This document shows positions 23,669 to 28,694 of a stretch of DNA of 36,459 bases, piece after piece. The notes beneath the pieces were generated by a model that worked only from the letters and a program-made list of their open reading frames with translations, searched no databases and was not told the DNA's origin. The first letter of the stretch is position 1. Every line of letters begins with the position of its first letter. This DNA comes from a virus. The DNA lies in the IMG/VR virus record IMGVR_UViG_3300047476_000196, positions 1 through 36,459 of that record, one strand, 5' to 3'. The position numbers were made by a program, and so were the translations under genes.

Positions 23669-24672
23669 CTACAAACTTAGAATTAGTAGCAGTACAACTA
23701 GACGTTGAGCGTAAAGCAAGACTAGTAAAGTCACAGGATATTGACGTAGAAAAGTATCTTAAAAATAACGATGTCGGTCAGAAGGTTCGTATTGTTTCAG
23801 ATTGGCTTGATGAGATCACAGAGAACTACATCAATCCACCTGTTAACGATAATGCAAAAATGCCGTGGACTAAGACGCAGGATGACTTTAACTTTCGTCT
23901 AGGTGAGGTTACTTTGTACGCAGGTGGTAACGGTGGCGGTAAATCGTTAATAACTGGTCAGATAGCGTTGCACTTGATTAAACAGAAACGTAAATGTGTT
24001 ATAGCGTCATTTGAGATGAAGCCTACTAGCACCATTCACAGGATGCTTAGACAGTTTGCTGGAGAGTTTATTGATGATCCGCTTACTAACGATAGAGATA
24101 AGTACATCAAAGGACTGACTCAGCGATTTAACCAGTTCGCAGGAGAACATCTCTACATCTACGATCAGCAGGGTTCTACAACTCCGAACCAGACTATTGC
24201 TATGGCTAGGTATTGTGCTGTAGAGCTAGGCATCGAGCATATTTTTATTGACTCGTTAATGAAAGTTTGTAATGCTGAGGATAATTTCAATGAACAGAAA
24301 TACTTTGTCGATGAGCTAACCGCATTGGCACGAGATCATAACGTCCACATTCATTTAATCCACCATATCCGCAAGTTACAGTCAGAGGAAGTTCAGCCTG
24401 GCAAGTACGACATAAAAGGCACTGGGGCTATAACGGATCAGGTTGATAATGTATTCTTAATGTGGCGTAATAAGCAGAAAGAGAATCGTAAGCGTAACGG
24501 AGAGAAGTACGAGGAGGATTTACCTGATGCTTACTTGATGTGCGAGAAGCAGCGTAACGGTGAAGCTCAAGAAATGTACGGACTTTATTACCATCAAGGT
24601 AGCCAGCAGTTTATTGAGACTTGGGGTGGTGCTACGATGGACTTTGATAACAAGGGAAAGTTTCGTGGATAA
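23665..24672 (+). CDS. DnaB-like replicative helicase (RecA-fold ATPase)
   Basis: 335-residue ATPase resembling the C-terminal domain of DnaB/Twinkle helicases. Walker A is GGNGGGKS (87-94), the following strand VIASFEMKP (112-120) carries the catalytic Glu, Walker B is HIFIDSLMKV, and HLIHHIRK with the later GTGAITDQVDNVFLMWRNK matches motifs H3/H4. The N-terminal DnaB domain is missing; residues 1-75 are a short helical linker. It should unwind the phage origin, loaded by the DUF1376 protein. The end overlaps the methyltransferase gene by 8 bases. Confidence 0.9.
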   Translation: MTTNLELVAVQLDVERKARLVKSQDIDVEKYLKNNDVGQKVRIVSDWLDEITENYINPPVNDNAKMPWTKTQDDFNFRLGEVTLYAGGNGGGKSLITGQIALHLIKQKRKCVIASFEMKPTSTIHRMLRQFAGEFIDDPLTNDRDKYIKGLTQRFNQFAGEHLYIYDQQGSTTPNQTIAMARYCAVELGIEHIFIDSLMKVCNAEDNFNEQKYFVDELTALARDHNVHIHLIHHIRKLQSEEVQPGKYDIKGTGAITDQVDNVFLMWRNKQKENRKRNGEKYEEDLPDAYLMCEKQRNGEAQEMYGLYYHQGSQQFIETWGGATMDFDNKGKFRG

Positions 24673-25567
24673 AATTGAATTTGGTGACTGCCGAGAAATA
24701 ATGCGTAAATGGGCTGAGTTAGGCATTAAATCGCAAACTTGTGTAACTAGTCCGCCTTATTACGGATTGCGTGATTATGGGCATGATGGTCAAATAGGAT
24801 TAGAAGAAACTCCAGAAGAATACATATCTGCAATGGTTGAGGTATTTCGATGTGTATGGGATGTACTTGAGGATGATGGGACACTATGGTTAAACATTGG
24901 TGATAGTTATTGCGGCACTGGTAGTAAGGGCGATTTAATAGATCCTAAAAATCCTAATGGCAGAAACGGTCAATCTAAAAGCAAAACTCAAAAGTTAGAA
25001 GGTTATAAATCAAAAGATTTAATCGGTATTCCGTGGATGCTTGCATTTGCTTTACGTGCTGATGGTTGGTATTTACGTCAAGATATTATTTGGCATAAAC
25101 CTAATCCAATGCCAGAGCCAGTACAAGATCGTTGCACTAAATCCCATGAATATATATTTTTATTTAGTAAGAAATCAAAATATTATTACGATATAGATGC
25201 AATGCAGGAGCCAGCTATTTATGCTGGAGATGATAGAGGTTCAAGAGGAGATTCAAGGAGAGGAACAGAAGCAAACTCAATGTCAGGTAAAACAGGAGAA
25301 ACTAGGAATAAACGTAGTGTTTGGTCAGTAACTACTAAACCTTATTCTGGAGCGCATTTTGCAGTATTTCCTCCTGATTTAATTGAACCTTGCATTATGG
25401 CTGGTGCGCCTATTGGTGGTATTGTTCTGGATCCTTTTATGGGAAGCGGAACAACTGCACAGGTAGCTCAAAACTTAGGACGCAAATATTTAGGCTGTGA
25501 ATTAAATACAGAATATGAGATATTGCAACGTGAACGACTTAAACAACAATCACTAGAATTAATATGA
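24665..25567 (+). CDS. DNA methyltransferase, beta class (m4C or m6A)
   Basis: 300-residue DNA methyltransferase. The catalytic motif SPPY is near the start (residues 29-32, in VTSPPYYGLRDYG) and the SAM-binding motif DPFMGSGTT is near the end (256-264). This permuted order defines beta-class amino-methyltransferases. SPPY fits either N4-cytosine or N6-adenine products. Residues about 90-230 hold the target-recognition region, including a Gly/Ser/Arg-rich loop. The start is a GTG at 24665 that overlaps the helicase stop. No restriction nuclease is adjacent, so it probably protects phage DNA from host restriction or marks it for replication timing. Confidence 0.92.
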   Translation: MDKIEFGDCREIMRKWAELGIKSQTCVTSPPYYGLRDYGHDGQIGLEETPEEYISAMVEVFRCVWDVLEDDGTLWLNIGDSYCGTGSKGDLIDPKNPNGRNGQSKSKTQKLEGYKSKDLIGIPWMLAFALRADGWYLRQDIIWHKPNPMPEPVQDRCTKSHEYIFLFSKKSKYYYDIDAMQEPAIYAGDDRGSRGDSRRGTEANSMSGKTGETRNKRSVWSVTTKPYSGAHFAVFPPDLIEPCIMAGAPIGGIVLDPFMGSGTTAQVAQNLGRKYLGCELNTEYEILQRERLKQQSLELI

Positions 25568-26819: not shown

Positions 26820-27135
26820 TCCGCACGCAGCAATCGACTACATAATCAAACATTCAAAGGAATACGCTAAGGCTAAAGCTGACGTTACCTACTTGTCAGA
26901 ATTCCGTAAGACTAAGAAAGCATTATGTTTTCAAAATAGCATGAAAAGTACGATGGCTGAGAAAGAAGCTGATGCTTACGCTAATCCAGAGTATCAAGCT
27001 GTATTGGAAGGGCTTAGGGAGGCTGTAGAAAGGGCTGAGACGCTACGATGGATGCTCATAGCGGCTCAGGCTAGGATTGATGTATTTCGTACTCAGGAGG
27101 CTTCTAATCGGTTCCTTGAGCGTTCCACTATTTAG
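26812..27135 (+). CDS. Conserved helical phage protein, TTG start
   Basis: 107-residue helical protein with motifs DPHAAIDYIIKHSKEYAKAK, SMKSTMAEKEADAYANPEYQ and ETLRWMLIAAQARIDVFRTQ, known from replication-region hypothetical proteins. The start TTG at 26812 lies 7 bases after AAGGAG and overlaps the previous gene by 8 bases. No better ATG exists upstream. Its end overlaps the leftward acidic gene by four bases. Confidence 0.75.
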   Translation: MTDPHAAIDYIIKHSKEYAKAKADVTYLSEFRKTKKALCFQNSMKSTMAEKEADAYANPEYQAVLEGLREAVERAETLRWMLIAAQARIDVFRTQEASNRFLERSTI

Positions 27136-27329
27136 ATTTCATCTTCAAAGTAGTCGAACTCGTCTGCGTACCACTCGTCATCTTCTTCACAGTACCAGTA
27201 CCAGATTTCTTCTTCTTCATCGAAAGACCAAGCTATGCCTTCTTCATCGTACTCGTAACCATCGTCCTCAAACTCAACTTCATCGGATTCTACGTAAATA
27301 ACCATGTCACCAACGGTAATAGTAATCAT
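27132..27329 (-). CDS. Hyper-acidic aromatic protein, DNA-mimic candidate
   Basis: 65-residue protein with 28 Asp/Glu, 15 aromatic residues (4 Trp, 7 Tyr, 4 Phe) and no Lys, Arg or His. It begins MITITVGDMVIYVESDEVEF and continues in short acidic-aromatic steps (DDGYEYDEEG; EEIWYWYCEEDDEWYADEFD). Start at 27329 is set by GGAG with about 6 bases spacing. The only leftward gene outside the 19.0-21.5 kb operon, it therefore needs its own promoter; a weak candidate is TTGAGC-16-TAGCAT on the minus strand within about 70 bases upstream. Size, charge and aromatic content resemble phage DNA-mimic proteins such as Ocr or Gam-like inhibitors, but no homology is claimed. Confidence 0.7.
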   Translation of the reverse strand: MITITVGDMVIYVESDEVEFEDDGYEYDEEGIAWSFDEEEEIWYWYCEEDDEWYADEFDYFEDEI

Positions 27330-27415
27330 AAATTTCTCCAAATAAACACAGCCCACACGCTGTAAAACAATGCTACCAGAGAATTATGACTGCTCAATAA
27401 ATAGGCATTAACAAT

Positions 27416-27631
27416 ATGACAATAGATAACATTAACAGTCCAATGCACTACACAAGAGGTGGTATAGAGACTATCGACTTTATTGAGGCTAAGGGACTTA
27501 ACTACAACTTAGGTAATGCTGTTAAATACATATCCAGAGCTGGTTACAAGTTAGATATGGCTGAGGATTTAAAGAAAGCAGTCTGGTATTTAAACAGGGA
27601 GATCAGTCGAATTGAAAAAGATAACAAATGA
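27416..27631 (+). CDS. DUF3310 protein
   Basis: 71-residue protein of the DUF3310 family (sometimes listed as nucleotide-kinase-like or SaV-like). It has the complete signature: NSPMHYTRGGIETIDFIEAK, then YNLGNAVKYISRAGYKLDMA and DLKKAVWYLNREI. It probably acts early in nucleotide metabolism or phage replication. The 86-base gap before it (27330-27415) also holds the control region of the leftward acidic gene. ATGA overlap with the next gene. Confidence 0.9.
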   Translation: MTIDNINSPMHYTRGGIETIDFIEAKGLNYNLGNAVKYISRAGYKLDMAEDLKKAVWYLNREISRIEKDNK

Positions 27632-27921
27632 TCTATAGAAATAAAACGATCCTTGAATTAGCTAGAGATATGCCTTGCCAACATTGCTATATATCGGATG
27701 GAACTGTTGTGGCTGCTCACTCAAATCAGTTGCGAGACGGTAAAGGACGTGGTATAAAATCACATGATTACCGCATAGCTGCTTTATGTTACGCCTGTCA
27801 CATGGAACTGGATCAAGGCAAGAATCTAAGTAAACAAGAGCGTGTCGAGATGTGGGAAGAAGCACATAGAAAGACAATCGGATTACTCTTTGATAACGGT
27901 AAATTACAGGTGATTAAATGA
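27628..27921 (+). CDS. YbcO/DUF1364-like nuclease
   Basis: 97-residue metal-dependent nuclease-like protein. CQHCYISDGTVVAAHSNQLR followed by HDYRIAALCYACHMELDQGK gives the CxxC...H...CxxCH pattern of the DUF1364/YbcO family, an HNH-related fold replacing lambda Nin-region functions. It may resolve or nick recombination intermediates. It overlaps DUF3310 and the next mini-gene by four bases each. Confidence 0.88.
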   Translation: MIYRNKTILELARDMPCQHCYISDGTVVAAHSNQLRDGKGRGIKSHDYRIAALCYACHMELDQGKNLSKQERVEMWEEAHRKTIGLLFDNGKLQVIK

Positions 27922-28085
27922 TGAAGAAAACTAAGGCAGCTAAGAAAGTCAGCAAGGTAATGAAGGAATTTGGTAAAGGCGAACTTCATTCAGGCAAGGG
28001 TGGCCCTGTAGTTAAGTCCAGAGACCAAGCCATCGCTATAGCATTAAGCGAAGCAAAGGTAGCTAAGAAGAAAGCCAAGAAATGA
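27918..28085 (+). CDS. DUF6496-like basic mini-protein (55 aa)
   Basis: 55-residue Lys-rich protein (KKTKAAKKVSKVMKEFGKGE, LHSGKGGPVVKSRDQAIAIA, then LSEAKVAKKK). The GELHSG and QAIAIALSEA pieces are the signature of DUF6496-type proteins often found in phages. Two ATGs (27918, 27921) are possible. First of four consecutive lysine-rich mini-genes linked by ATGA overlaps. DNA binding is inferred from charge. Confidence 0.75.
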   Translation: MMKKTKAAKKVSKVMKEFGKGELHSGKGGPVVKSRDQAIAIALSEAKVAKKKAKK

Positions 28086-28231
28086 AAGCCGGACTATACA
28101 GCAATATCCATAGCAAACGTAAGCGCATAGCTGAGGGATCAGGCGAGAAGATGAATAAGCCTGGTACTAAGAATGCGCCAACTAAAGCAGACTTCAAGTT
28201 AGCTGCTAAGACTGCGAAGAAAAAGAAATGA
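28082..28231 (+). CDS. Basic mini-protein (49 aa)
   Basis: 49-residue protein (MKAGLYSNIHSKRKRIAEGS, GEKMNKPGTKNAPTKADFKL, and a Lys-rich end). It belongs to a small conserved set that travels with DUF6496 and DUF6321 genes in phages. ATGA overlaps at both ends. No biochemical role known. The charge suggests nucleic-acid contact. Confidence 0.75.
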   Translation: MKAGLYSNIHSKRKRIAEGSGEKMNKPGTKNAPTKADFKLAAKTAKKKK

Positions 28232-28527
28232 GTGCGGCTTGGACAAAGAAAGCAGGTAAGAATCCTAAAGGTGGTCTTAACGAAAAAGGTCGTAAATCTT
28301 ACGAGGCTGAGAATCCTGGCTCTAATCTAAAAGCTCCAGTTAAGTCAGGTGACAATCCACGTAGAGCAAGTTTTTTGGCTCGTATGGGGAATATGCATGG
28401 TGCTGAGAGAAAACCAAACGGTGAGCCTACTAGACTGCTGTTAAGTCTAAATGCTTGGGGTGCAAGTTCAAAAGCTGATGCAAAAAAGAAAGCAGCAGCA
28501 ATATCTGAAAGGAATAAAAAGAAATGA
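28228..28527 (+). CDS. DUF6321-like protein
   Basis: 99-residue basic protein with SAAWTKKAGKNPKGGLNEKG, SYEAENPGSNLKAPVKSG and RRASFLARMGNMHGAE, then a Lys-rich tail (KADAKKKAAAISERNKKK). This matches the DUF6321 family of phages. Role unknown; it may be a virion-internal or DNA-condensing protein because it lies just before the packaging genes. Third gene of the lysine-rich set. Confidence 0.8.
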   Translation: MSAAWTKKAGKNPKGGLNEKGRKSYEAENPGSNLKAPVKSGDNPRRASFLARMGNMHGAERKPNGEPTRLLLSLNAWGASSKADAKKKAAAISERNKKK

Positions 28528-28694
28528 AAGGCATGAAATCTTGTCCTAAGTGTAAGGGTGGTGAGTGCAAAGGCGGTAAGGGTTGCATGATGGAAGAAAA
28601 AGAGAAAAGCAAAAAGAACGGCAAGATCGAGATTGAGATTAGTCTGCCCATGCGTGGAAGCCGTACCAAAACAAACAAAGCCAAAAAGAAGTAA
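28524..28694 (+). CDS. Cys/Lys-rich mini-protein with zinc-knuckle-like start (56 aa)
   Basis: 56 residues. The start MKGMKSCPKCKGGECKGGKG plus Cys21 gives four cysteines (7, 10, 15, 21), a compact metal-binding knuckle. It then becomes charged and ends in a Lys-rich tail (TKTNKAKKK). ATGA overlap upstream and TAATG overlap with the acetyltransferase gene downstream. Fourth and last of the lysine-rich set. Confidence 0.7.
   Translation: MKGMKSCPKCKGGECKGGKGCMMEEKEKSKKNGKIEIEISLPMRGSRTKTNKAKKK

Follow-up and report, generated by a model that had tools for sequence, protein, structure and literature searches.

A hyper-acidic aromatic phage protein family with a covarying leader hairpin: a portable cassette for a possible polyanionic decoy

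Phage morons are single-gene cassettes that carry their own promoter, small phage takeover proteins dock on other proteins and change their activity, and WW- and OCRE-type domains are short aromatic β-meanders. The known DNA mimics of phages combine small size and high acidity with diverse structures (PMC9836394). Among them, Ocr (gp0.3) of phage T7 contains 116 amino acids, 34 of which are acidic and 6 basic, and forms a mostly α-helical dimer shaped like bent DNA (PMC4872106). The RecBCD inhibitors gp5.9 of T7, which is α-helical and has a pI of 4.0 (PMC9836394), and Gam of lambda are also small, highly acidic proteins that form α-helical dimers, a parallel coiled coil in the case of gp5.9. 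Ugi, SAUGI and p56 are small acidic DNA mimics as well, of which Ugi and SAUGI bind via a β-strand; the strand-1 motif of these two proteins is E-[ASVFHTNI]-[LVIFMT], and the signatures of p56 are E-X-X-Y and F-X-D-S-Y (PMC10303552).

The protein described here is encoded on the minus strand of a viral DNA of 36,459 nucleotides (IMG/VR record IMGVR_UViG_3300047476_000196), the whole of which was analyzed and is referred to as the window (Table 1). Translation of positions 27329..27132 of the minus strand gives MITITVGDMVIYVESDEVEFEDDGYEYDEEGIAWSFDEEEEIWYWYCEEDDEWYADEFDYFEDEI*, a product with 28 D/E, 15 F/W/Y and no K/R/H residues and a calculated pI of about 4.05. The position, length and composition given in the original prediction were exact, the strand being the only item left unstated there. 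This ORF is the most acidic of all window ORFs, the runner-up having 30% D/E together with 14 K/R/H residues. Taking the composition of the window's own long genes as background (K/R/H 11%, D/E 12%), the probability of finding at least 28 D/E in 65 residues is ~2e-10 and that of finding no K/R/H ~4e-4. Like Ocr, the product is a small and very acidic phage protein encoded by a separate small gene and is presumed to act stoichiometrically; unlike Ocr, it has 65 residues, none of them basic, and is predicted to be all-β with its acids in turns and tails. The predicted all-β fold also separates it from gp5.9 and Gam, with which it shares small size and high acidity. The proposal that the protein is Ocr-, Arn- or Gam-like was thus not borne out, since neither sequence nor fold similarity to Ocr, Arn, Gam or gp5.9 was found in Pfam, PHROGs, PDB or Foldseek searches, and Ocr and gp5.9 are α-helical. 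More generally, no sequence or structural similarity to known DNA mimics or anti-defense proteins was detected. Profiles of Pfam, PHROGs and NCBIfam gave no match for the acidic protein, and hence none to a non-mimic family; the PDB sequence search returned only noise; and PADLOC-DB contained no family for the 65-residue protein and merely noise (E=0.05) for the distant member L148. Judged from these searches, the family appears to be previously undescribed and is probably hidden by low-complexity filters. In fact, tblastn of the 65-residue protein against isolate phages gave no match, and the low-complexity filter may mask the protein there. A uracil-DNA glycosylase inhibitor of the Ugi/SAUGI/p56 type, which would likewise be small, acidic and β-rich, is very unlikely. 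The protein does contain the pattern E-X(6)-[ED]-[ED]-X-[ED]-[ED] (PMC10303552), as would any such acidic protein, and E-X-X-Y occurs twice, but the E-[ASVFHTNI]-[LVIFMT] (ESI-type) motif and F-X-D-S-Y are both absent, and there is no Pfam or PDB match to Ugi or p56.

Table 1. Features of the acidic gene, its leader and its surroundings (positions in the window)
Feature	Position	Strand	Details
Hyper-acidic ORF, 65 aa + stop	27132..27329	minus	ATG 27329-27327, TAA ending 27132
Conserved core EYDEEGIAWSFDEEEEIWYWYCEEDDEWY, residues 26-54	27168..27254	minus	Family alignments and AlphaFold2 strands
N-terminal predicted β-hairpin MITITVGDMVIYVE, residues 1-14	27288..27329	minus	Strands 2-6 and 9-13; block pLDDT <50
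Shine-Dalgarno GGAG	27336..27339	minus	6 nt from ATG; conserved in relatives
Leader hairpin ACAGC-GTGTGG-GCTGT	27348..27363	minus	5-bp stem, compensatory changes in relatives
-10-like TAGCAT	27370..27375	minus	TG just before (27378-27377); hairpin ~6 nt downstream
Convergent neighbor, 107 aa	26812..27135	plus	No Pfam family; TAG overlaps the TAA of the acidic gene
Orphan N6/N4 DNA methyltransferase	24665-25567		Pfam PF01555

The acidic ORF is a genuine gene under purifying selection and is strongly conserved. A scan of IMG/VR identified 28 contigs that encode the protein with 79-100% identity, so the frame is conserved in related phages, and K/R/H residues are absent from all 28 copies of this window clade. 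Complete copies have in common a DE[FY]DYFEDE[IV] C-terminal tail and a GGAGAAA Shine-Dalgarno sequence, and some copies contain an insertion of 6-7 residues that is a duplicated 'VEYEDD' unit. Among 13 aligned sequences the pooled dN/dS is ~0.10, and 34 of the 51 variable sites of the gene fall on codon position 3. These data bear on the idea that the locus produces an antisense or regulatory RNA convergent to gene 26812, the ORF being incidental. Such an RNA would be in line with the structured conserved leader described below, with transcription against the flanking operon and with an exact antisense frame that has no stops in any of the 13 aligned sequences. However, the low dN/dS, the concentration of variation on codon position 3, the conserved Shine-Dalgarno sequence and the retention of the protein core where locus, neighbors and overlapping strand differ make this the most improbable of the explanations considered here.

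Beyond the window clade, profile searches and, for a few more, a back-translated DNA motif retrieved about 30 further, more distant members, which brings the family to about 58-60 contigs (counted as contig names). The members share the core E.DE[DE]G.A[WY].F[DE]....[WY]Y.[YF].E....W, in which G31, F36, W43, Y44 and W53 (numbering of the window protein) are invariant or almost invariant in family alignments. Their length ranges from 58 to 108 residues, and the whole open frame of L148 spans 119 residues with two core-like units, i.e., tandem meanders. The D/E content reaches ~50%, K/R/H residues number two or three at most and are often found at residue 2, and every member keeps a strong negative charge. 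The extreme D/E content and the DEEEE and EEDDE turns, present in all members, could point to a polyanionic protein that binds or stores cations (Ca2+/Mg2+ or polyamine) and aids infection chemically. This explanation is unlikely, because no match to an EF-hand or other known metal-binding family was found and because simple charge leaves the invariant core aromatics and glycine unexplained.

Four lineages of the family can be distinguished. Lineage A comprises the window type and the more diverged L103, L130 and L132, all at one syntenic spot. In lineage B the gene is located directly 3' of the major capsid gene, is co-directional with it and in most contigs has a small HNH-type gene converging on it. 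Lineage C genes lie upstream of the TerS/TerL genes, whereas those of lineage D close a cluster of recombination genes (ERF, exonuclease and SSB-like genes, assigned by inspection) and adjoin a metallophosphoesterase-like gene. The acidic gene thus occupies four or more different insertion sites across phages. Judged by terminase or capsid sequences, the phages that carry the distant members are unrelated to the window phage: the window TerL is nearest to those of Methylophilales phage Venkman (64% identity) and a Manatee Spring phage (64-65% for the two), lineage B phages have a capsid protein of the HTVC023P/Pag-Yong1 type, and lineage C phages a TerL of the MEP301/BcepC6B type. The acidic ORFs of Venkman and MW202481, whose TerL proteins are the closest, include no gene of this kind. 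The bacterial and archaeal genome contigs scanned contained no relative and hence gave no prophage or host evidence, and distant blastn matches in Alishewanella and Erwinia jumbo phages were discarded as simple D/E runs in unrelated, lysine-rich proteins. Four T7-like contigs (L156, L160, L166 and L167) encode a protein of 185-211 residues with an embedded acidic-aromatic stretch of the DVNYFYDEDEEVEYYYVEDEGVWYYYDEDEDDWFVVED type, on the minus strand in the first three and on the plus strand in L167, and in two of the four the stretch precedes a long poly-E run. These larger proteins do contain basic residues, and the stretch is possibly either a domain form of the family element or the result of convergence, its homology being uncertain.

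An additional feature shared by the family resides upstream of the gene. The sequences upstream of the gene in different lineages can be aligned despite their differing loci, and they present the same order of elements across lineages: a -10 box, ~6 nt, a 5-bp hairpin, a GGAG-like Shine-Dalgarno sequence and the ATG. The -10-like hexamer reads TATAAT, TATTAT or TAGTAT in relatives, and its T, A, A and T are invariant in leader alignments that span different loci. A scan for consensus -35/-10 elements found no promoter, so it is from this conservation that we infer one. The window hairpin alone has a folding energy of -7.9 kcal/mol. Over 24 distinct leaders the stem is 99% paired, and three of its pairs show double-sided changes; 12 compensated cells are found in the stem compared with a mean of 3.6 after shuffling, in controls that leave some relatedness in, and sliding the stem partner abolishes the pairing signal. 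A covariance model retrieves the leader of five members outside its training set (L117, L130, L132, L148 and L154), all of which have the same hairpin in different letters. Within the window and 208 kb covering 17 loci, matches of the leader model at E<0.1 occur solely upstream of acidic genes. The hairpin is not uniform in the whole family, the leaders of lineage C having retained the -10 box and GCAGC while the stem is gone, and the hairpin being weak in five lineage D contigs with an L099-type gene. As to its nature, a dimeric DNA operator is less likely, given that the arms are separated by anything between about 5 and 10 nt in different members, which suits an RNA hairpin better, and a role as terminator or attenuator is less likely because the U-run 3' of the hairpin is not conserved (L082, L103 and L106). 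The Rfam search of the leader region produced a mere chance match on the opposite strand. If transcription starts ~7 nt past the -10 box, the hairpin would be placed at or beside the 5' end of the mRNA; stem-loops in 5'-UTRs are known to protect and stabilize bacterial mRNAs (PMC7509114).

Because the leader is common to members located at different sites, gene and leader travel together, and the sequence comparisons indicate that they move between unrelated phages as one self-transcribed cassette with a predicted promoter. The distribution of the gene is informative in this respect. In the window clade, the acidic gene accompanies the homologue of gene 26812 (at least 83% identity, or truncated matches) in all 28 contigs and is invariably antisense and adjacent to it. 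A sister clade has a 26812 homologue of ~65-79% identity and the identical gene order 25564-26284-26812-27918-28524, and its contigs, where they span that far, contain no such acidic ORF within 900 bases of the locus, although, contigs being fragments, a gene missing from this site may still be encoded elsewhere in the genome. Similarly, the isolates Pag-Yong1, DSL-LC04 and HTVC023P, which have the capsid operon of lineage B, have only 104-154 bp between the capsid gene and the next structural gene. The cassette is therefore gained and lost, being missing from the sister clade and from capsid-operon isolates with the same flanks. As in morons, a single ORF has a conserved promoter-leader that is maintained independently of its flanks, occupies varied sites and is absent from same-flank relatives. 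In contrast to morons, the cassette includes a conserved 5' hairpin, its product is hyper-acidic, and there is no clear terminator of its own in the window, where no terminator-like site was found 3' of the gene in 26900-27600. Since its own terminator was not found and the neighboring gene converges on it, the cassette is better termed moron-like than a moron. A terminator-like hairpin, GGGGGCTTCGGCCCCC-T(n), closes the upstream capsid gene in several contigs of lineage B, where the acidic gene therefore looks like a transcription unit of its own. The small convergent HNH-type gene found just 3' of the acidic gene in L079, L098, L108, L117 and L154 encodes ~120 residues and is of the MPHKDISARRATNRRHYERNKA type in four of the five, the L108 copy having no Pfam match; it may be the mobilizer of the cassette in lineage B.

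Several statements of the original prediction concern the surroundings of the gene. That it is transcribed alone against its surroundings agrees with the sequence, in which the major genes on either side all run on the plus strand and the gene has its own conserved leader upstream. Its placement next to replication genes holds only loosely, since the primase and helicase genes are 2.5-4 kb away and the direct neighbors are of other kinds: the gene converges with 26812 and is divergent from 27416 (DUF3310) and 27628 (YbcO-like nuclease). Members of the 26812 gene family, common in phages of Vibrio and Pseudomonas and in uncultivated phages, frequently have helicase, methyltransferase or nuclease genes as neighbors. 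On the other side, a series of small genes with very basic or nuclease-like products occupies 27628-28694; it includes the YbcO-like nuclease 27628 and the Lys-rich 27918, 28228 and 28524 and is kept across the clade. A homologue of 28228 is also encoded close to the acidic gene in the phages that have the latter at the capsid locus. Finally, the orphan methyltransferase had been regarded as a possible second layer against restriction. This link was not upheld, as only 2 of the ~23 covered relatives with the acidic gene also carry the methyltransferase gene; the methyltransferase is sporadic in relatives and thus itself an accessory gene.

AlphaFold2, run on the family alignment, models the 65-residue protein with a mean pLDDT of 62 and a pTM of 0.45. 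Its core is modeled as a three-stranded β-meander (strands 33-37, 42-47 and 52-55; block pLDDT 67-80), and the N-terminal hairpin has a counterpart in L103 according to the family alignment. The AlphaFold2 model of the 108-residue member presents the same meander, with blocks of pLDDT 85-87, and an additional N-terminal β-β-α element. Foldseek found no match in the PDB at E<0.001 for either the 65- or the 108-residue model. In the 65-residue model (mean pLDDT 62), 26 of the 28 acids are located in turns, linker and tails and only 2 on strands, aromatics account for 9 of the 25 strand residues, and DNA-like rows of carboxylates are not seen at this low model confidence. The proposed DNA mimicry is nonetheless plausible: the size and charge of the protein, the constraint on its gene and the patchy, mobile occurrence of the latter agree with an anti-defense mimic, while the lack of likeness to known mimics speaks against it.

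The arrangement of aromatics and acids is equally relevant to another explanation, in which the protein is an acidic-aromatic docking module and not a DNA decoy, engaging one particular partner of host or phage origin (RNA polymerase, a nucleoid protein or a basic phage protein) via a WW/OCRE-like aromatic meander and altering the activity of that partner. This is possible, by analogy with takeover proteins, and nearly as likely as a decoy because the aromatic core is the most strongly conserved part. Conservation peaks in this core and not in the number of acids, the modeled strands carry aromatics and hardly any acids, L148 has meanders in tandem, and L160 and L166 contain the motif within larger proteins. 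As in WW and OCRE domains, there are three short strands whose aromatic pairs are spaced regularly; however, the protein is far more acidic, and searches by profile and by fold matched it to neither WW nor OCRE nor another domain. The small basic proteins 28228 and 27918 are encoded nearby in lineage A, and a 28228 homologue in lineage B, but homologues of both persist in the sister clade without the acidic gene and hence are not part of an obligate pair, which weakens the pairing of the acidic protein with either of them.

The explanation tentatively preferred here is that the protein is an acidic polyanionic decoy for the basic surface of a host, possibly defense, protein, produced from a portable cassette. 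This cassette consists of a predicted promoter, a probably 5'-terminal RNA hairpin, a Shine-Dalgarno sequence and a single small ORF for an acidic-aromatic, predicted β-sheet protein, and is most likely transcribed by the host RNA polymerase as a unit separate from the phage operons. Situated at the 5' end or close to it, the hairpin may keep the short mRNA stable and thereby allow abundant protein to be made. The protein would then occupy the basic nucleic-acid-binding surface of its host target as a stoichiometric polyanionic decoy, to which the aromatic meander would supply shape and specificity. Natural targets for such a decoy would be restriction, recombination-nuclease or other defense proteins, or a nucleoid protein. 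Patchy presence and mobility as a cassette are what an arms-race gene would be expected to show, and the spread of the portable cassette suggests an accessory weapon or regulator. Against a decoy counts that no co-occurring defense target could be demonstrated, and the acidic-aromatic stretch inside the larger T7-like proteins would suit a structural element just as well. The more specific proposal that base-free, hyper-acidic β-meander inhibitors delivered by a 'promoter - 5' hairpin - ORF' cassette block a widespread host DNA- or RNA-binding defense protein by non-helical mimicry is doubtful.

In all, many inhibitors of restriction, repair and CRISPR enzymes come from small acidic proteins of phages, which have no sequence signatures and escape homology searches. 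The combination of an aromatic-acidic core and a promoter-hairpin leader is a signature that makes this family recognizable and yields a small set of genes that can be tested directly. Should the product prove to be an inhibitor, its broad distribution over unrelated phages would indicate a common host target.
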